Shown: in pieces, positions 3,436 to 31,512 of the stretch | Position numbering within the stretch: the stretch's first letter is position 1 | Layout of the letters: each line of letters opens with the position of its first letter | Assembly: GCA_026985095.1 (NCBI GenBank) | Contig: JALSQW010000058.1 | Coordinates: 1-32,678, forward strand | Direction of reading: 5' to 3' | Source of the DNA: Acidimicrobiia bacterium | GTDB taxonomy: Bacteria; Actinomycetota; Acidimicrobiia; Spongiisociales; UBA5794 | Length of the DNA: 32,678 bases | The notes under the pieces: model-generated | The model's input: only the letters and a program-made list of their open reading frames with translations | Told to the model about the DNA's origin: nothing | Databases searched by the model: none | Translations under genes and position numbers: made by a program

Positions 3436-4296
3436 CTACGCGCCCCGGTCGCGGCGGGCAGCGATCATCGCTGCGACGATGGGGCTCGGTTCGGGCGGCT
3501 GCCAAGCCCGATAGGCCGTCTTGCGGTCGACGGGCCACACCAGGTCGTCGAGATCCCTGCTGGCGCCGGGCTCGTCCGCCGTCTCGAGCAGGTCCAGCGC
3601 GGCGTCGACGACCCGCCTGTGGGTCGCCGCGTCGCCCACCGGCCCGAAGGCCTGACCGAACGGGAACGGCACTCCGACGACCCGTGGGGCCCCACGACGC
3701 CGGGAGATGCCCGGCATCATCGACACCGTCACCGTCGGGATCCCGCTCGCCTCCACCACACGTGCCAGCACGGGCACGTTCACACAGCAGTCCGGTCAGG
3801 CGGGGGCGAGGAGCAGCACCTCGACGCCGATCTCGCCCAGGAACCTGGCGATCGCCGGACCGGTCTCGGTCCGCCACACCGCACAGCTCCGCTCCTGGTA
3901 GCCCATGACCGACACGTGGGTGGGGGCGACCGTCCCGATGCGACCATCCTGCTCGAGGCTCCGGAGCGTGCGCAGCGGAAGCGCCACGTCGAGGTCCTCC
4001 AGGAGCGGGCTCGTGTCGATGTGCAGATGGACGGCGTCGATGTCGTCGTGGTCGACGGTGGCAGGAATCGATCGCCACGACGGATCGCCCCATGTCGGTT
4101 CCCGACGTTCCCGCTCGGCGTCGAACGGGTCCTGGGAGGCGGGCAGGTAGACGCCCGCCGAGGTCAACGCGGCGACGGTCGCCTCCGCGACGGGCCGCCG
4201 CGGCGCGGTCCACACCGGCGGTTCGTCGAGGGGCGGGATGGCGTCGTACGTCGGGGCGAAGCTCCGGGGGAGATACTGGAAGTCGTCGACGGCCAT
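3436..4296 (-). CDS. GrdB/PrdB-like reductase, probable selenoprotein (in-frame TGA = Sec167)
   Basis: Two consecutive minus-strand frames, 4296-3799 and 3795-3436, are in the same phase and separated only by a TGA at 3798-3796. Read through, they give 286 residues resembling the glycine/sarcosine/betaine/D-proline reductase selenoprotein B family. Matching features are the N-terminal region with FDxERERREPTWGDPSWR (about 58-75), the HLHIDTSPLLEDLDVALPLRTLRSL block (about 90-114), a VSVMGYQ segment, and the redox motif U167-P-D-C170 followed by ARVVEASGIPTVTVS. In this family the position holds Sec or Cys in a U/C-P-x-C motif. A hairpin sits 16 nt after the TGA (separate entry). The gene starts with ATG 4296; there is no Shine-Dalgarno, but TATGCT lies 6 nt upstream, suggesting a leaderless mRNA. 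The substrate is unknown; no partner GrdA/GrdC/PrdA gene is present. The alternative is a nonsense mutation. Confidence 0.8.
3760..3779 (-). promoter_or_regulatory. bacterial SECIS-like hairpin after the in-frame TGA
   Basis: On the mRNA strand, starting 16 nt after the TGA at 3798-3796, a perfect 7-bp stem (ACGUGCC / GGCACGU) closes a 6-nt loop (CGUGCU) with G at loop position 2. The apical loop begins 23 nt after the UGA. Known bacterial SECIS elements lie inside the coding region with the apical loop roughly 16-37 nt downstream and a G among the first loop bases, so geometry and loop fit. It is the predicted binding site for SelB. Confidence 0.6.
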
Positions 4297-22340: not shown

Positions 22341-22416
22341 CCCGACCGCCACTTGACCGAAGCGCCCACGACGACCACCATCGTCGCCACGCTGGAGACC
22401 GATTGGAGATCGACCG

Positions 22417-23577
22417 ATGAGACGACTGAAGCGCTGGATGCTGCTCCTCGCAGCCTTGGCGATCGTGGCCGCCGCCTGCTCCTCGGGCAGCACGACCACC
22501 ACCGCCGCAGGCGGAGACACCGGAGGGGACACGGGCGACGAGATGACCGAACCGCTCCAGGTGGCGTTCGTCTACGTCGCTCCCATCGGTGACCTCGGCT
22601 GGACCTGGGCCCACGACCAAGGCCGCAAAGCGATCGAAGACCAGTTCGGCGACCAGGTGGAGACCACCTTCGTCGAGAACGTTCCCGAAGGGCCCGACGC
22701 CGAACGGGTCATCCGCGACCTCGCCCAGAAGGGCAACGACCTCATCGTCACCACGTCGTTCGGGTTCATGGATCCGACCATCGCCGTGGCCTCCGAGTTC
22801 CCCGACGTCGAGTTCGTCCACATCTCGGGCTTCAAGACCGCCGACAACGTCTCGACCGTGTTCGGTCGGATGTACCAGCCTCGGTACCTGTCGGGCATCG
22901 TTGCCGGCGCCGCCACCGAGACCAACACCATCGGCTACGTCGCCGCCTTCCCGATCCCCGAGGTGATCCGAGGGATCAACGCGTTCGCCCTGGGCGTCCA
23001 GCAGTCGGCGCCCGACGCCGTCGTCAAGGTCGTGTGGACCAACACCTGGTTCGGCCCGCCCGAAGAGAAGGAAGCCGCCGAAGCGCTCCTCGCCTCCGGC
23101 GCCGACGTCATCGCCCAACACCAGGACACCACCGAGCCCCAGAAGGCCGCCGCCGACGCCGGAGCCGTCTCGATCGGCTACGACTCGGACATGCGGGCCT
23201 TCGTCGGCGACACCGTCCTCACCAGCCCGGTGTGGAACTGGGGGGTCGAGTACGTCGACATCGTCCAGCAGATCCTCGACGGCACCTACACGGGCGGCTT
23301 CCAGTACTGGGGCGGGATGGACGACGGCATCGTCGATCTCGCACCCATGTCGCCGATGGTGTCCGAAGAGACCGCGGCCGTGGTGGAGAAGGCCCGTCAA
23401 GCGATCATCGCCAACCAGACCGACGTGTTCTGCGGGCCGATCGAAGGCGCCAACGGCAACATGGTCGTCGACGACGGCAAATGCCTGACCGACGGTGAGA
23501 TGCTCTCGATGGACTGGTTCGTCGCGGGAGTCGAGGGAGAGGCGCCCGCCGAGGCACCGACCGGCTTGGGCGAATGA
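22417..23577 (+). CDS. BMP family ABC transporter substrate-binding lipoprotein
   Basis: A 386-residue lipoprotein. The signal peptide ends in AAAC (Cys21), followed by a Ser/Thr/Gly linker. The rest is a basic membrane protein (BMP/PnrA-like) periplasmic-binding fold: VAFVYVAPIGDLGWTWAHDQGRKAIE, DLAQKGNDLIVTTSFGFMDPT, FPDVEFVHISG, GIVAGAATETNTIGYVAAFPIPEVIRGINAFALGVQ and ASGADVIAQHQDTTEPQKAA. Characterised BMP proteins bind nucleosides (PnrA, NupN, BmpA), so purine or pyrimidine nucleosides, or related compounds such as the substrates of the neighbouring enzymes, are likely. GGAG precedes the ATG. TTGACC at 22353-22358 could be a -35, but no good -10 follows it. It is first in the transporter operon. 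Confidence 0.93.
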   Translation: MRRLKRWMLLLAALAIVAAACSSGSTTTTAAGGDTGGDTGDEMTEPLQVAFVYVAPIGDLGWTWAHDQGRKAIEDQFGDQVETTFVENVPEGPDAERVIRDLAQKGNDLIVTTSFGFMDPTIAVASEFPDVEFVHISGFKTADNVSTVFGRMYQPRYLSGIVAGAATETNTIGYVAAFPIPEVIRGINAFALGVQQSAPDAVVKVVWTNTWFGPPEEKEAAEALLASGADVIAQHQDTTEPQKAAADAGAVSIGYDSDMRAFVGDTVLTSPVWNWGVEYVDIVQQILDGTYTGGFQYWGGMDDGIVDLAPMSPMVSEETAAVVEKARQAIIANQTDVFCGPIEGANGNMVVDDGKCLTDGEMLSMDWFVAGVEGEAPAEAPTGLGE

Positions 23578-23635
23578 CCCGAAGCGTCGGGTGGTCGTGG
23601 AAGGACACGACCGCCCGACGCGCCCGTCCGCTCCC

Positions 23636-25195
23636 GTGACCGACACAGCCCCCATCGCCGTCGCCCTTCGGGGGATCACCAAGACCTTCCCCGGCGTGCT
23701 CGCCAACGACGATGTCGACCTCGAGGTCCGACGTGGCGAGATCCATGCCCTCCTCGGTGAGAACGGCGCCGGCAAGTCGACGCTGATGAGCGTCCTGACC
23801 GGCCTCTATCAGCCCGACCGCGGCCAGATCCTCATCGGCGATGAGACCGGAAGCCTCCGGCCCGTCACGATCGTCTCCCCCCGCGACGCCATCGGTCTCG
23901 GCATCGGGATGGTCCATCAGCACTTCAAGCTCGTCCCCACCCAAACCGTCGCCGAGAACATCATCCTCGGCATGGACGGCGTACCGTTCGTCCTCGACAT
24001 GGGTTCGGTCGAGGCCGACGTCGCCGCACTGTCGGAACGGTTCCGCATGCCGGTCCCCGTCTCCGCCTTCATCTGGCAGATCTCCGTCGGCGAGCAGCAA
24101 CGCGTCGAGATCCTCAAGGCCCTCTACCGGGGCGCCGAGATCCTCATCCTCGATGAGCCCACCGCCGTGCTCACCCCACAGGAAGCCGCCGAGGTGGCCG
24201 CCACCCTCCGGGCGCTCGCCGGCGAAGGCAAAGCCATCATCTTCATCTCCCACAAACTCGACGAGGTGATGACCGTCGCCGACCGGGTCACCGTCCTCCG
24301 GAAGGGACGCAACGTCGCCACCGTGGACGTCGGCGCCACCGACAAGCACCGGCTCGCCGAGCTGATGGTCGGGCGCGAGGTCGCCACCACCATCGACAAG
24401 GACGACGGGGCCATCGGACCCGTCGTGTTGCGGATCGACGGTGTCGTCGCCCGCAACGACCGCGGCATCGTGGCGTTGAAGGACCTCACCCTCGAGGTGC
24501 GCGCCGGGGAGATCCTCGGCATCGCCGGGGTCGCCGGCAACGGTCAGCGGGAGCTCACCGAGGTCGCTACCGGGCTTCGCCGCGTCGAGCAGGGGACCGT
24601 CACCGTCGACGGCGAAGACCTCACCAACCGGCCGCCGGTGCGGTTCATCGACGCCGGCGTCAGCCACGTTCCCTCCGACCGTCTCGGCCGCGGCCTGGCC
24701 GGGAACCTCCCGCTCGCCGACAACATGGCCATGAAGGCCTACCGGAGGCCACCGATCGCTGCGGGGCCCATGCTCCGACGGGACCGGATGCGGGCCTTCG
24801 CCGGCGACCTGATCGAACGATTCAACGTCGACACACCCGGCCCCGACACGCCGGCCCGCAACCTGTCGGGCGGGAACCAACAGAAGGCGATCCTGGCGAG
24901 GGAGATCACCGCAGGGACGTGGGCCAGAGAGCGAGGCAGGCGCCCCGTCCTCATCGCCGCCTACCCGACTCGAGGCCTCGACGTCGGAGCGATCGAAGAC
25001 GTTCGCCGCCACCTGATCGAGCAACGCTCCGGCGGAACCGCGGTGCTCCTCATCTCCGAGGAACTCGACGAGCTGATGATGATGAGCGACCGGATCGCGG
25101 TCCTCCACGGCGGCGAGGTCATGGGCGTCGTCGCCCCCGCCGAGACCACGATCGAAGAGCTCGGTCTGATGATGGCCGGGGAGATGCGGCGATGA
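23636..25195 (+). CDS. ABC transporter ATP-binding protein (two nucleotide-binding domains, BMP-linked)
   Basis: A 519-residue fused ATPase of the sugar/nucleoside type. Domain 1 has Walker A GENGAGKS (41-48), the Q-loop region GMVHQHFKLVPTQTVAEN, a signature-like ISVGEQQRVEI and Walker B ILILDEPTAVLTP. Domain 2 has a degenerate Walker A (GVAGNGQREL, no GKS/T), signature LSGGNQQKAILARE and a weak Walker B (LIAAYPTRGLDVGA, with Tyr-Pro in place of Asp-Glu). A degenerate second site is normal in this subfamily. The start is uncertain: GTG 23636 gives a family-typical N-terminus but no ribosome site; upstream in-frame GTGs exist, the nearest near 23591-23600. Its TGA overlaps the permease ATG by 4 nt. 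Confidence 0.92.
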   Translation: MTDTAPIAVALRGITKTFPGVLANDDVDLEVRRGEIHALLGENGAGKSTLMSVLTGLYQPDRGQILIGDETGSLRPVTIVSPRDAIGLGIGMVHQHFKLVPTQTVAENIILGMDGVPFVLDMGSVEADVAALSERFRMPVPVSAFIWQISVGEQQRVEILKALYRGAEILILDEPTAVLTPQEAAEVAATLRALAGEGKAIIFISHKLDEVMTVADRVTVLRKGRNVATVDVGATDKHRLAELMVGREVATTIDKDDGAIGPVVLRIDGVVARNDRGIVALKDLTLEVRAGEILGIAGVAGNGQRELTEVATGLRRVEQGTVTVDGEDLTNRPPVRFIDAGVSHVPSDRLGRGLAGNLPLADNMAMKAYRRPPIAAGPMLRRDRMRAFAGDLIERFNVDTPGPDTPARNLSGGNQQKAILAREITAGTWARERGRRPVLIAAYPTRGLDVGAIEDVRRHLIEQRSGGTAVLLISEELDELMMMSDRIAVLHGGEVMGVVAPAETTIEELGLMMAGEMRR

Positions 25196-26325
25196 ACCTG
25201 CCGTACCGGGTCACGCTCGAGAAGCGCCTCGACGCCCCTCGGATCGTCGTGTGGCTCGTGCCCGTCGTCTCCATCCTCGTCGCGCTCGCGTTCGGTGCGA
25301 TCGTCCTGGCGGTCGCCGGCGCCGACCCGCTGGAGGCCTACGGCCAGATCCTCACCGGCGCCTTCGGGTCCCTCACCGCGTGGCTCGACGGAGAGTTCTA
25401 CGCCGTGTCCGAAACCGTCGTGCGCACCGTCCCGTTGATCCTCACGGGCCTCGCCGTCGCCGTCGCCTTCCGGATGCGCTTCTGGAACATCGGCGCCGAA
25501 GGCCAGCTCGTCTTCGGTGGCGTCTTCGCCGCCTGGGTCGCCCTGTTCCTCCCCGGGGTGATCCCCGGTATCCCGCAGACCCTGTGGGTGTACCTGCCGC
25601 TGATGGCCGTCGTCGCGGTCGCCGGGGGCGCCATCTGGGCACTCATCCCCGCGTTCCTGAAGGCCTACCTCGACGTCGACGAGATCATCACCACGATCAT
25701 GCTCAACTTCGTGGCGATCCTCACCTACCAGTATCTGTTCACCGGACCGTGGAAGGACCCCGAAGGCCAAGGGTTCCCCGGCTCGGCCCTGTTCCCCGAG
25801 TTCACGTGGCTTCCTCGACTCACCGGGCGGGTCACCCTCGGGCTCGTCCTGGCCCTGGCAGCGGCCGTGGTCGTCTGGCTCATCTTCGACCACACCAAGC
25901 TCGGGTACGAGATCGCGCTCATGGGTGAGAACCCCGAAGCTGCCCGATACGCCGGAGTGAACCGGGCCGGCATCATCATCGTTGTCATGGTGCTGTCGGG
26001 CGGGCTCGCCGGACTGGCAGGGTTCACCGAGACCGCCGGCATCTCGCACCGACTCCAACAAGGCCTCGCCATCGGCAACGGCTTCACCGGGATCATCGTC
26101 GCCTGGGTCGCCAAACTCCGGCCTGGATGGATCGTCGTCGTCGCGTTCTTGCTGTCGGCGCTGTTCGTCGGCGGAGACCAGCTCCAGATCTCGATGGGTC
26201 TCCCGGCGTCCATCGGCGCCTTCTTCCAGGGGATGATCCTCCTGTTCATCCTCGGCGGCGACGTGTTCACCCGCTACCGGGTCAAGGTCGCTCGCCGGCC
26301 CGCGGCCGTGGCTGTCGAGGGGTGA
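25192..26325 (+). CDS. ABC transporter permease (BMP/nucleoside type)
   Basis: A 377-residue inner membrane permease of the branched-chain/ribose (BPD_transp_2) type. About ten hydrophobic segments start near residue 20. The AFRMRFWNIGAEGQLVFGGVFAAW and YLDVDEIITTIMLNFVAILTYQYLF segments are typical of the first permease in BMP transporters, and the coupling helix region YEIALMGENPEAARYAGVN is present. The ATG overlaps the ATPase stop (ATGA). The partner permease follows after 4 nt, so the pair forms a heterodimeric channel. Confidence 0.93.
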   Translation: MNLPYRVTLEKRLDAPRIVVWLVPVVSILVALAFGAIVLAVAGADPLEAYGQILTGAFGSLTAWLDGEFYAVSETVVRTVPLILTGLAVAVAFRMRFWNIGAEGQLVFGGVFAAWVALFLPGVIPGIPQTLWVYLPLMAVVAVAGGAIWALIPAFLKAYLDVDEIITTIMLNFVAILTYQYLFTGPWKDPEGQGFPGSALFPEFTWLPRLTGRVTLGLVLALAAAVVVWLIFDHTKLGYEIALMGENPEAARYAGVNRAGIIIVVMVLSGGLAGLAGFTETAGISHRLQQGLAIGNGFTGIIVAWVAKLRPGWIVVVAFLLSALFVGGDQLQISMGLPASIGAFFQGMILLFILGGDVFTRYRVKVARRPAAVAVEG

Positions 26326-26329
26326 GCCG

Positions 26330-27280
26330 ATGGACCTGCTGACCTCGATCCTGGCCATCGCCGTGTTCGCCGGCGCGTCGCTCGTGTACGCCTCGGTCGG
26401 TGAGATCCTCACCGAACGGTCCGGCATCCTCAACCTCGGCGTCGAAGGCATGATGATCATGGGAGCCGTCACCGCCTTCGCCGCCGCCGTCGCCTCCGGC
26501 AACGCGGTGGTCGGCGTCGTCGTCGGCGGCCTCGTCGGCGGCATGCTTGCCCTCGTCCACGCCTTCCTGACCATCACCCTGCGCGCCGACCAGGTCGTCT
26601 CCGGCCTCGCCCTCACGCTCGCCGGCGGCGGCCTCGCCAGTTTCCTCGGTCAGCGGCTCGGCCCGGGCGGCGCCCCGCTCGTCGGCATGGTGGGACCCCG
26701 ATTCCGCGCGATCACGATCCCCGGTCTGTCCGACATCCCCGTGATCGGTCCCGCGTTCTTCGACCAGGACGCGTTGGTCTACCTGCTGTTCCTCGTCGTT
26801 CCGCTCGCCTGGTTCCTGCTCGCCCGCACCCGCCCAGGGCTGTACCTGCGAGCCGTCGGCGAGAACCCGCAGACCGCCGACGCCATGGGGATCGACGTCT
26901 TCCAGGTCCGGTACCTCTACACCTTCGTCGGCGGCGTCATGGCCGGGGTCGCCGGCGCCCATCTGTCGCTCGCCTACACCCCCGGATGGACCGAGAACCT
27001 CACCGGAGGAAGGGGATGGATCGCCGTCGCGCTCGTCATCTTCGCCACCTGGGATCCCCGCAAAGCCGTCGCCGGAGCGTTGCTCTTCGGCGGTGTCAAC
27101 GCCATCCAGTTCCGTCTTCAGGCCGAAGGGACGACGATCCCCGCAAGCCTGCTCAACATGATGCCGTACATCCTGACCATCGTCGTGCTGGTGGTCATCA
27201 CCCGCTTCGAATCGATCCGCAAGAAGGTCGGTGCCCCCGCCGCCCTCGGGCTCCCCTACAACCGAGAGGAGCGCACATGA
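26330..27280 (+). CDS. ABC transporter permease, second subunit (BMP/nucleoside type)
   Basis: A 316-residue membrane permease, shorter than its partner as in other BMP transporters. Characteristic segments are ASVGEILTERSGILNLGVEGMMIMGAV near the start, TLRADQVVSGLALTLAGGGLASFLG in the middle and the coupling-helix region YLRAVGENPQTADAMGIDVFQVRYLYTFVGG. Eight or nine hydrophobic segments are visible. GGGGTGAG lies before the ATG. Its TGA overlaps the ATG of the deaminase gene by 4 nt, tying transport directly to purine or pyrimidine processing. Confidence 0.93.
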   Translation: MDLLTSILAIAVFAGASLVYASVGEILTERSGILNLGVEGMMIMGAVTAFAAAVASGNAVVGVVVGGLVGGMLALVHAFLTITLRADQVVSGLALTLAGGGLASFLGQRLGPGGAPLVGMVGPRFRAITIPGLSDIPVIGPAFFDQDALVYLLFLVVPLAWFLLARTRPGLYLRAVGENPQTADAMGIDVFQVRYLYTFVGGVMAGVAGAHLSLAYTPGWTENLTGGRGWIAVALVIFATWDPRKAVAGALLFGGVNAIQFRLQAEGTTIPASLLNMMPYILTIVVLVVITRFESIRKKVGAPAALGLPYNREERT

Positions 27281-27858
27281 CCCTGCCCGAATACCGGCTG
27301 CGCCTGCCCGACTGGATCGACGACATCGCCGGCGAGGACGTGGTGCTCCCCGACGTGGACGACCGCATGCGCTTCGTGGTGTCCCTCGCCCGGCGCAACG
27401 TCGCCGAAGACACCGGCGGGCCGTTCGGCGCCGCCATCTTCGAACGCGGCACGGGACGCCTCGTGGCCCCTGGCGTCAACCGGGTCGTTCCGGCCCGCAG
27501 CGCCACCGCCCACGCCGAGATCGTCGCCATCAGCCTCGCCGGTCAGGTCAAAGGGACCTTCGATCTCGGCGCCGGAACGCCCACGGAACTGGTCACCAGC
27601 GTCGAACCGTGCGCGATGTGCCTCGGCGCCGTCCCGTGGTCCGGCGTCGCTGCCGTCGTCTGCGGCGCCCGCGACGAGGACGCCCGCGCCGTCGGGTTCG
27701 ACGAAGGCGACAAACCCGCCGACTGGATCGACTCCCTGGCCGCTCGGGGCATCGACGTCGTCCGCGACGTCATGCGTCGCGATGCCGCCGCCGTCCTGCA
27801 GGACTACGCAGCGGCAGGCGGCATCATCTACAACGGAAAGAGCCTGCCCGATGCATGA
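27277..27858 (+). CDS. nucleoside/nucleobase deaminase (cytidine deaminase-like, guanine deaminase type)
   Basis: A 193-residue zinc deaminase of the cytidine deaminase-like superfamily. The zinc and catalytic residues are present: His79-Ala-Glu81 (TAHAEIVAIS) and Pro111-Cys112-x2-Cys115 (EPCAMCLGA). The FGAAIF segment, the CLGAVPWSGVAAVVCGARDEDA stretch and the total length resemble TadA/GuaD-type guanine and nucleoside deaminases, somewhat longer than TadA itself. It sits in the same operon as a nucleoside-type ABC transporter and a xanthine dehydrogenase-type enzyme, so guanine to xanthine or an equivalent step is likely; cytosine or other substrates remain possible. The ATG overlaps the permease stop (ATGA); its own stop overlaps the next gene by 8 nt. 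Confidence 0.88.
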   Translation: MTLPEYRLRLPDWIDDIAGEDVVLPDVDDRMRFVVSLARRNVAEDTGGPFGAAIFERGTGRLVAPGVNRVVPARSATAHAEIVAISLAGQVKGTFDLGAGTPTELVTSVEPCAMCLGAVPWSGVAAVVCGARDEDARAVGFDEGDKPADWIDSLAARGIDVVRDVMRRDAAAVLQDYAAAGGIIYNGKSLPDA

Positions 27859-29299
27859 GGTCCAGCGACTCCACGACCCGGTCGTGCGCTACCTGGCGTC
27901 CACCACCGTCGACGAAGCGCTCGACGCCCTCGCCGAACACGGCGACCGCGCCCGGGTCGTCGCCGGTGCGACCGACCTGCTCCTCGAGATCCGACGTGGC
28001 GTCCGCACCGGCATCGACACCCTCGTCGACCTCACCCGCATCGACGGGCTTGGCGACATCGATCTGGAGGGTGGCACCGTCCATCTCGGCCCGCTCGTGA
28101 CCCACGCCGACGTCGTCGCGTCCGAGATCCTGCGCCGCCACGGTCTCCCCCTCGCCCAGGCATCGCTCGAGGTCGGCGGGCCGCAGCTTCGGAACCGTGC
28201 CACCGTCGCCGGCAACGTCGTCACCGCCAGCCCGGCCAACGACACCGTGTCGGCCCTCGTCGCCCTCGACGCGTCGCTCACGCTCACGTCGAACGCCGGG
28301 AGCCGGACGATGCCCATCACCGACTTCCTCCTCGGCGTCCGTCGGACCGCCCTCCGGCAGGGCGAGATCGTCACCGACATCTCCTTCCCCGCCCTCGACG
28401 CGTCCCGACGCGGCATCTTCCTCAAGCTGGGCCTCCGCAGCTCCCAGGCGATCTCGGTGGTCCACCTCGCCGTCGTCGCAACCTTCGACGCGACGACGGT
28501 CACCGAACCGCGGGTCGCCCTCGGCAGTGTCGCACCGACCGTCGTGCGTTCGCCGGCGGCCGAGGCCGCTCTCGATGGCGCCACCCTCGACGGCACGACC
28601 ATCGCCGTCGCCGCGGACGCGGCCGCCGCCGAGATCCAACCCATCGACGACCTGCGAGCGACCGCCGACTACCGACGGGCCGCGGTCGCGGTCATGATGC
28701 GACGCGCCCTCGCCGCCCTCGGCGCCGGCATCGAGGCGACGATGTGGCCATCCCGGCCGCCGTTGCTCCGCACGCCGGCCGTCGAAGGCCCGCCGACGGC
28801 CCCTGTCGTCACCGACGGGGACACCATCGCCGCCACTATCAACGGCGAGGAGGTCGCGGTCCCGGCCGCGGTCGACGACACCCTTCTGGTCTGGCTGCGG
28901 GACGTCGCCGGCCCCGCCCTCGGGACGTCGCTCACCGGCACGAAGGAGGGCTGTGCCGAAGGCGAATGCGGCGCCTGCACCGTCTTCCTCGACGGCAAGG
29001 CGGTTCTCTCGTGCCTCGTGCCGGCGCCCCGCGCCGACGGCGCCGACATCGTCACCGTTGAAGGGATCGCCACAGATGCGCCGCATCGGGTGCAAGCAGG
29101 CTTCGTCCGCGCCGACGCCACCCAATGCGGGTTCTGTACCCCCGGTTTCGTCATGGCCGCCGCCAAACTGCTCGAGGAGATCCCGATCCCCGACCTCGAC
29201 ACGATCCGCCACGCCATGTCGGGCAACGTCTGCCGATGCACCGGCTACACCTCCATCTTCGACGGTGTGCTCCACGCCATCGACGAGGGACGACCGTGA
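27851..29299 (+). CDS. fused FAD-binding and [2Fe-2S] subunit of a xanthine dehydrogenase-type enzyme
   Basis: A 482-residue fusion. Residues 1-290 are the FAD-binding (CoxM/XdhB) part with VVAGATDLLLE (37-47) and the FAD loop GGPQLRNRATVAGNVVTASPAND (109-131), followed by the CO-dehydrogenase flavoprotein C-terminal domain. Residues about 320-482 are the ferredoxin part (CoxS/XdhC-like) with Cys368, Cys373, Cys376 and Cys388 for the plant-type [2Fe-2S] cluster (GCAEGECGACTVF), and Cys426, Cys429, Cys461 and Cys463 for the second cluster (CGFCTPG and CRC). The order FAD then Fe-S reverses the usual Fe-S-FAD order of fused xanthine dehydrogenases. The ATG overlaps the deaminase stop by 8 nt; the next gene overlaps its stop by 4 nt. 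Its role is electron transfer from the Mo site. Confidence 0.93.
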   Translation: MHEVQRLHDPVVRYLASTTVDEALDALAEHGDRARVVAGATDLLLEIRRGVRTGIDTLVDLTRIDGLGDIDLEGGTVHLGPLVTHADVVASEILRRHGLPLAQASLEVGGPQLRNRATVAGNVVTASPANDTVSALVALDASLTLTSNAGSRTMPITDFLLGVRRTALRQGEIVTDISFPALDASRRGIFLKLGLRSSQAISVVHLAVVATFDATTVTEPRVALGSVAPTVVRSPAAEAALDGATLDGTTIAVAADAAAAEIQPIDDLRATADYRRAAVAVMMRRALAALGAGIEATMWPSRPPLLRTPAVEGPPTAPVVTDGDTIAATINGEEVAVPAAVDDTLLVWLRDVAGPALGTSLTGTKEGCAEGECGACTVFLDGKAVLSCLVPAPRADGADIVTVEGIATDAPHRVQAGFVRADATQCGFCTPGFVMAAAKLLEEIPIPDLDTIRHAMSGNVCRCTGYTSIFDGVLHAIDEGRP

Positions 29300-31512
29300 A
29301 CGGCGTCGGCCGGTCCGTGCCTCGCGTCGACGCCGTGGCCAAGGTCACCGGCGCTGCCCGCTATCCCGCCGACGTCGCCGGCCCGGAGCTGCTCCACGCC
29401 AAGGTCGTCTTCAGTGGCCGCCCCCACGCTCGCATGGTGGCCATGGACGTCGCTCCCGCCCTGGCCGTACCCGGCGTCGTCGACGTCGTCACCGCCGCCG
29501 ACGTGCCGGTCAACGAGTACGGCTTGACGATGTTCGACCAGCCGGTCCTGGTCGGTGTGGGAGCGACGGGCAGGAGCGCGGTGCCGTCGGACGTCAGCCG
29601 CTGGGAAGGCGATCAGATCGCCGTGGTGATCGCCGAGACGCCGCGAGCTGCGGCCGAAGGTGCCGCGGCCTTGCGCGTCGACTGGGAGGACCTCCCGATC
29701 GTGGCCGACCTCGAGGCGGCCCTCCGCGACGAGGTGCTGGTCCACGACGAGACCGCCACCAACGTCTACGTCCACGACCGGATCCGCAAGGGCGACATCG
29801 CCGCCGGCTGGGCCCAGGCCGACGTCGTCGTCGAAGGCACCTACCGCCTGCCGCACCAGGAACACGCGTTCCTCCAACCCGAAGCGGCCGTCTCCTACCT
29901 CGACACCGACGGGCGCGTCACGGTCGAGATCGCCGGACAGTGGGCCCACGAGGACCAGGCGCAGATCGCTCACGCCCTCGACCTGCCACCCGAGCAGGTG
30001 CGGGTCATCTACACCGCCATCGGTGGGGCGTTCGGCGGTCGGGAGGACATGTCGTTGCAGATCGTCATGGCGCTCGCCACCCGCAAGCTCGCCGCCCGCG
30101 GCATCGACCGCCCCATCCGATGCGTGTGGTCACGAGAGGAGTCCATCGTCGGCCACCACAAGCGCCACCGGGGCCTCGTGCATGCGAAGCTGGGTGCCAC
30201 CAGCGACGGCACGATCGTCGCCGTCGAAGCCGACGCGTACCTCGACGCCGGCGCCTACAACTACACCACCAACAAGGTCCTCGGGAACCTCCATCTGACC
30301 GTGTCGGGGCCCTACGAGATCCCCAACGCCAGGATCGACTCGTACGGGGTGTACACGAACGCCGTCCCCGGTGGCGCGTTCCGCGGGTTCGGTTCGCCGC
30401 AGGGGGCGTTCGTCGCAGAGAACCAGATGAACAAGCTCGCCGAGGTGCTCGGCATGGATCCCGTCGAGCTGCGGATGCGTAACGTCATCCGGGAAGGCAG
30501 CATCGGCCCGACCCAGGTGCCCTTCCCTCCCGGAGTGTCCATGCCGGAGGTCATCGAGGCCTGCGCACAGGCCGCCGCAGACGGGACCGACGAGGCTGCG
30601 GCCTTCTCGCCCATCGCATCCCTCCCCAGCGTCGGCGCTCGCATCCGCCGCGGTCGGGGCTTCGCCTGCGCCTTCAAGAACGTGGGCTTCTCCTTCGGGT
30701 TCCCCGAACGGTGCGAAGCCACCATCGAGCTCCACGGCGACGAGGAGATCGAGCGGGTCGTCCTCCACCACGCAGGCGCCGACGTCGGCCAGGGCGCCCA
30801 CACCGTGTTCAGGCAGATGGCCGCCGACGCGGTCGGTGTCGACCTCGACAAGGTCGACACCGTCTACTCCGACACCGCCACCACCGGCGATTCCGGTTCC
30901 GCCTCGGCGTCCCGGCTCACCTTCATGGCCGGCAACGCCATCCTGGGGGCCGCAGAGGAAGCCGACAAGCGATGGCGCGACGGCGACCGTCCGGCGGTGG
31001 GAGAGTTCCGGTACGTTCCTCCACCCACCGACCCGTACGATCCCGACACCGGACGGGGTGCGATCAACTTCGCCTACGGCTACGTCGCCGAAGCGGTCGA
31101 TGCCGCCGTCGATCTCGACACCGGCCACATCCGGGTCCACCGCGTCGTCTGCGCCGTCGACGTGGGGAAGGCCGTCAACCCCAAGCTCGTCGAAGGGCAG
31201 GTCCACGGCGCCGTCGTTCAGGCCCACGGCTACGCCCTCACCGAACGCCTCGTCGTGGTCGACGGCCGGATCGTCAACCCGCGGCTGTCGGGGTACCTCG
31301 TCCCCGGCGCCCTCGACATCCCCGACCGCATCGAGACGGTCATCGTCGAGCATCCCGACCCGCGCGGCCCGTGGGGTGCCCGCGGCATGGCCGAGATGCC
31401 GTTCATCCCTTACGCGCCGGCCGTCGTCGCCGCCATCCACGACGCCACCGGCATCTGGTTCGACGAGATCCCCCTCACCCCCGACCGCGTACTCGCCGCC
31501 CTGCGCGCCTGA
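29296..31512 (+). CDS. xanthine dehydrogenase family protein, molybdopterin-binding subunit
   Basis: A 738-residue large subunit of the xanthine oxidase family. Order: the ald_xan_dh_C hammerhead domain (about 15-130; KVTGAARYPADV, LLHAKVVFSGRPHA), then Moco domains with QEHAFLQPEAAVSY, GGAFGGREDMSLQ, VPGGAFRGFGSPQ, DVGQGAHTVFRQMAADAVGV and the C-terminal GPWGARGMAEMPF, whose Glu aligns with the catalytic base of xanthine dehydrogenase. Together with the FAD/Fe-S subunit it should hydroxylate a purine or similar N-heterocycle using water. GTG 29296 overlaps the previous stop (GTGA), which decides the start. The maturation protein (XdhC-type) is not in the window. The substrate may differ from xanthine. 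Confidence 0.93.
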   Translation: MNGVGRSVPRVDAVAKVTGAARYPADVAGPELLHAKVVFSGRPHARMVAMDVAPALAVPGVVDVVTAADVPVNEYGLTMFDQPVLVGVGATGRSAVPSDVSRWEGDQIAVVIAETPRAAAEGAAALRVDWEDLPIVADLEAALRDEVLVHDETATNVYVHDRIRKGDIAAGWAQADVVVEGTYRLPHQEHAFLQPEAAVSYLDTDGRVTVEIAGQWAHEDQAQIAHALDLPPEQVRVIYTAIGGAFGGREDMSLQIVMALATRKLAARGIDRPIRCVWSREESIVGHHKRHRGLVHAKLGATSDGTIVAVEADAYLDAGAYNYTTNKVLGNLHLTVSGPYEIPNARIDSYGVYTNAVPGGAFRGFGSPQGAFVAENQMNKLAEVLGMDPVELRMRNVIREGSIGPTQVPFPPGVSMPEVIEACAQAAADGTDEAAAFSPIASLPSVGARIRRGRGFACAFKNVGFSFGFPERCEATIELHGDEEIERVVLHHAGADVGQGAHTVFRQMAADAVGVDLDKVDTVYSDTATTGDSGSASASRLTFMAGNAILGAAEEADKRWRDGDRPAVGEFRYVPPPTDPYDPDTGRGAINFAYGYVAEAVDAAVDLDTGHIRVHRVVCAVDVGKAVNPKLVEGQVHGAVVQAHGYALTERLVVVDGRIVNPRLSGYLVPGALDIPDRIETVIVEHPDPRGPWGARGMAEMPFIPYAPAVVAAIHDATGIWFDEIPLTPDRVLAALRA

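Follow-up and report, generated by a model that had tools for sequence, protein, structure and literature searches.

A predicted stand-alone PrdB/GrdB-like selenoprotein, read through an in-frame TGA, in an Acidimicrobiia genome

A stretch of 32,678 nucleotides from an Acidimicrobiia bacterium (contig JALSQW010000058.1 of assembly GCA_026985095.1; hereafter the window) carries on its minus strand a reading frame of 166 codons, one TGA, 119 further codons and a stop. Does this frame encode a single selenoprotein, and is that protein the amino-acid reductase subunit which it resembles? The original prediction had described the frame in these terms, placing the TGA inside a U-P-D-C motif, and translation reproduces both points exactly: the context is LLLAPA-U-PDCCVNVPVLAR, and the motif reads A-U-P-D-C-C-V-N (Table 1). 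The GC content of the window is 69%, an ORF scan finds chance long frames to be common in it, and the hairpin downstream of the TGA, taken alone, is no more stable than its shuffled versions (z -0.74); the case therefore depends on comparison. What makes chance unlikely is the combination of a shared TGA column, synonymous change past the TGA, frozen third positions in the hairpin and covarying stems.

Table 1. Features of the selenoprotein locus; positions are those of the window.
Feature	Position	Strand	Remarks and basis
PrdB/GrdB-like selenoprotein gene	3436..4296	-	286 residues + stop, one TGA read through; translation, Pfam/NCBIfam, homologues, tree
Sec codon TGA, residue 167, in UPDCC redox motif	3796..3798	-	TGA in 11/11 clade members; TGC in four other homologues
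Cys170, Sec partner in UxxC	3787..3789	-	invariant in 41-sequence alignment; codon table
SECIS-type hairpin, 7 bp stem, loop CGUGCU	3760..3779	-	16 nt after TGA; inner six pairs clade-invariant

The host genome (G000; 2.93 Mb in 70 contigs, completeness rated 100%) has the Sec-decoding system that had been expected of it: a tRNA-Sec scoring 73.6 bits against a cut-off of 47, and SelA (401.6 bits), SelB (294.3 bits, adjoining SelA) and SelD (396 bits), all above their curated cut-offs. The host SelD gene is also a selenoprotein gene, with an in-frame TGA in SHGAG-U-ACK (G000:C32:14580-15503, L018). SelA was found in all 46 genomes tested, both those with and those without a homologue of the window protein, so that the Sec trait is general in the group and the presence of SelA does not discriminate carriers of the homologue.

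Of 60 near relatives, 36 have a match to the window protein, as do 80 of the 396 genomes sampled from the phylum; the named records among close relatives are Actinomycetota or Acidimicrobiia metagenome assemblies. A search of viral contigs yielded no relative, and that of plasmids only firmicute PrdB. In a tree of 62 sequences the window protein lies within an 11-member clade (support 100/100), which we call UPDCC after its motif, apart from true PrdB; the clade is rare in the order (9/138 genomes). Across the relatives the motif is UPxC, where x is D, M, V, L, F or I. TGA occupies one and the same column in every Sec homologue read, that is in the 11 clade members and in 45 others tabulated. 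Cys homologues aligned at the TGA, for which a search had been proposed, do exist: four of them (L060, L061, L062 and L065) carry TGC there. That the single in-frame stop marks a pseudogene or the sequencing error envisaged at the outset is refuted by recurrence of the identical TGA in many separately assembled genomes, by the mostly synonymous changes beyond it, and by complete Sec machinery and a conserved hairpin.

The codon differences past the TGA bear equally on what is made from this gene. Among the nearest relatives, L020, L021 and L022, synonymous ones prevail: L021 has 33 against 13 nonsynonymous and L022 has 48 against 16, while the counts for the more distant L052 are 31 and 39. 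Purifying selection is thus acting on the C-terminal 119 residues at this close range. Termination competes with UGA decoding, and it might be that the upstream 166-residue part alone is made in practice and the remainder rarely translated; with selection acting on the C-terminal part, which holds Cys170 and other invariant residues, we find this scarcely credible.

The predicted 7-bp hairpin with a G in its loop, 16 nt past the TGA, is there to the letter (ACGUGCC-CGUGCU-GGCACGU, the G being the second loop position) and is conserved in the clade. It has the features that PMC1088965 gives for a bacterial SECIS, namely a hairpin closely following the TGA whose apical loop is small and contains a G. 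Within the UPDCC clade the inner six pairs never change: there is no covariation, the stem being simply invariant, and the single-sequence minimum-energy fold differs in some members (L021, L053). Codon usage is more telling. The third bases of the six full codons in the hairpin (173-178) are identical in ten clade genes, and the frozen codons include GCA for Ala, a minority choice in these genes (45/310 Ala codons). Where the amino acid is invariant, the third base is fixed in 8 of 10 codons at 168-178, compared with 4 of the 68 such codons outside this stretch (Fisher p 8.6e-7, a value inflated by shared ancestry, which affects both codon sets alike).

Covariation appears in the wider family. 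The 44 Sec homologues outside the clade have a hairpin 10 nt after the TGA, the clade hairpin sitting six bases further downstream; 96.8% of cells are paired, against 23-46% in slid controls, six of the seven pairs show changes on both sides (compensatory), none of 500 shuffles is as good, and the loop GU is kept in all 44. All seven pairs are kept in 36/45 Sec homologues; in the Cys homologues L060, L061, L062 and L065 the number left is 6, 4, 5 and 2. With these Sec-to-Cys exchanges the hairpin has decayed to differing extents, in hosts where SelA is still present. With the TGA column conserved, Cys homologues aligned to it, the Sec machinery in place and the hairpin conserved or covarying, selenocysteine is very probably inserted at TGA 167, a conclusion about as sure as sequence allows.

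To which family does the protein belong? Its designation as GrdB/PrdB-like holds at the level of the superfamily. The Pfam GRDB model (PF07355) matches with 23.9 bits against a gathering cut-off of 22, and matches 38 of 41 relatives at E up to 0.01; the PrdB model TIGR04483 gives 116.6 bits, far under its equivalog cut-off of 300. GrdB-type models align through their C-terminal half only, with a TIGR01918-type score of 43.9 against a cut-off of 65.45. Models of the UGSC family (PF24696, NF041046) show weak similarity to 2 to 4 of the 41 relatives (E about 0.0002-0.0015) and do not match the window protein itself.

The window protein resembles PrdB in length class, in near full-length alignment, in its Sec column and in the UxxC arrangement. 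It differs in sequence (29-33% identity), in its motif, which is UPDCCVN where the PrdB proteins of Terrisporobacter and Peptoclostridium have UGTCHRS, in the presence of Cys171 in place of His after UxxC, and in a C-terminal extension of ~30 residues; moreover, its genome is without PrdA. Compared with GrdB, GrdF and GrdH it corresponds to positions 217-422 of the 431 in the model, that is to the Sec-bearing C-terminal half; unlike GrdB it has no N-terminal half (286 residues versus about 430), and its genome holds neither GrdA nor a pyruvoyl partner. Structure adds little: sequence searches of the PDB gave chance matches only, an AlphaFold model (window protein with L050-L052) reached pLDDT 59, and Foldseek returned nothing for it at E below 0.001. 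We therefore make no claim as to fold, and infer the active-site picture given below.

The absence of partner subunits, claimed originally, holds for the whole genome: the pyruvoyl family of PrdA (PF09338), GrdA (PF04723) and GrdE were all searched for in G000 and none was found. The PF09338 search is capable of detection, scoring Terrisporobacter PrdA at 80.2 bits and finding the family in 15 of the 396 genomes of the phylum; GrdA exceeds its cut-off in 14, the two sets overlapping. In those 15 genomes our query gives a weak match that is either no more than a few kb away from a PF09338 gene or gene fragment or shares its contig, which indicates that they hold true grd-type genes. Such glycine-reductase-type sets are seen in G050:C96 and G056:C1, from the same order, and in 13 other genomes of the phylum; they comprise PF09338, a GrdB-like frame and, in most, also GrdA with a TGA. 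Strong homologues of the window protein (E below 1e-15) are distributed otherwise: only one of the 64 genomes that have one, G346, also has PF09338.

Might the protein nevertheless be a true PrdB, or the B subunit of a glycine, sarcosine or betaine reductase, with its partners elsewhere in the genome or missed in the draft? The superfamily is the same, and in Peptoclostridium acidaminophilum (NZ_CP007453.1, L113) prdB is annotated without prdA alongside. We nonetheless give this reading a slim chance, in view of a genome rated complete in which PF09338 and GrdA find nothing, a motif that is UPDCC rather than UGTC, a score so far short of the equivalog cut-off, and the single co-occurrence of strong homologue and pyruvoyl family. 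By score, UPxC motif and missing partners, the protein is predicted to be neither a D-proline nor a glycine reductase.

The surroundings of the gene vary. Comparison of neighbouring genes across relatives revealed no gene family common to the lineages, the local neighbours being CNNM, HIT, MenB-like, sulfate permease or RibD-like according to lineage, so that context gives no substrate. Elsewhere in the window, on the plus strand at 22400-31500, the translated frames, judged by eye, include an ABC transporter for nucleosides or nucleobases (BmpA-like) and, after it, a deaminase and subunits resembling xanthine dehydrogenase; this is probably a purine use cluster, and nothing was seen to connect it with the selenoprotein.

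The explanation that we consider likely from these comparisons is that the gene specifies one 286-residue selenoprotein, a stand-alone Sec/Cys reductase corresponding to PrdB and hence, as PrdB does, to the C-terminal half of GrdB. SelB carrying Sec-tRNA would bind the hairpin past UGA 167 and insert selenocysteine, a step for which the comparative evidence is good. The active site would probably be Sec167-Pro-Asp-Cys170(-Cys171), as the UxxC chemistry of the family suggests. By the same chemistry, attack of the selenolate on a small substrate would be followed by a selenenyl-sulfide bond to Cys170, to be reduced again either by thioredoxin or by a small thiol. The protein would act alone. Glycine and D-proline reductase hold their amino substrates by a pyruvoyl subunit; with that subunit absent here, an amine bound as a Schiff base is an improbable substrate.

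A narrower form of this explanation, compatible with it, is that the protein is a thiol/selenol oxidoreductase acting on disulfides of proteins or small molecules, or on peroxides, in stress defence, and not on a carbon-heteroatom bond. The UxxC motif with the extra Cys171 of the clade would suit such a role, a weak Thioredoxin_9 match (16.8 bits) falls at the motif, and no catabolic operon is seen directly around the gene. The thioredoxin match is nevertheless below its cut-off, none being found above it, and the domain is that of GrdB/PrdB, whose known members cleave C-N bonds. We regard the oxidoreductase role as quite conceivable while leaning against it.

For the stand-alone PrdB-like reductase more broadly, a new reaction may reasonably be proposed. 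One rather tentative idea, which we hold to be less likely than not, is that the UPDCC clade belongs with its UPxC relatives to a large family of actinobacterial selenoenzymes, each of a single subunit, whose reaction is a reductive cleavage, of Stickland type or other, that needs no pyruvoyl cofactor and has a substrate new to selenoenzymes. Fluoroacetate reduction in Synergistota has reportedly been linked to a GrdB-like protein; we take this as a lead, not as evidence.

How much of this is new? Proteins of this kind are already on record from marine metagenomes. The survey passages available to us (PMC1088965, PMC2398784) place UxxC selenoproteins termed 'PrdB', after D-proline reductase, among the commonest found, with 42 Sec forms in the Sargasso Sea, and 235 Sec and 110 Cys forms in the GOS survey. 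These proteins are like ours in Pfam family, in the UxxC motif and in having both Sec and Cys forms; going by these descriptions, the marine 'PrdB' and the window protein probably fall into one broad stand-alone family. Those passages make no mention of the UPDCC subclade, and our search of open-licence literature found no paper on it. The window protein is thus best read as a newly recognised branch of an established family; what is added here is the UPDCC clade, whose hairpin is shifted, and the absence of partners throughout the genome.

The locus is a clear example of a gene that is truncated when TGA is always taken as a stop, and that standard gene-finding would split. In the phylum, strong homologues occur without D-proline reductase partners in 63 of 64 genomes, and true glycine reductase sets are found in a separate group of genomes. 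If this is true also in the marine data, an abundant selenoenzyme would be left without a known reaction, and the name 'PrdB', together with the amino-acid metabolism inferred from it, would be wrong for much of the family.
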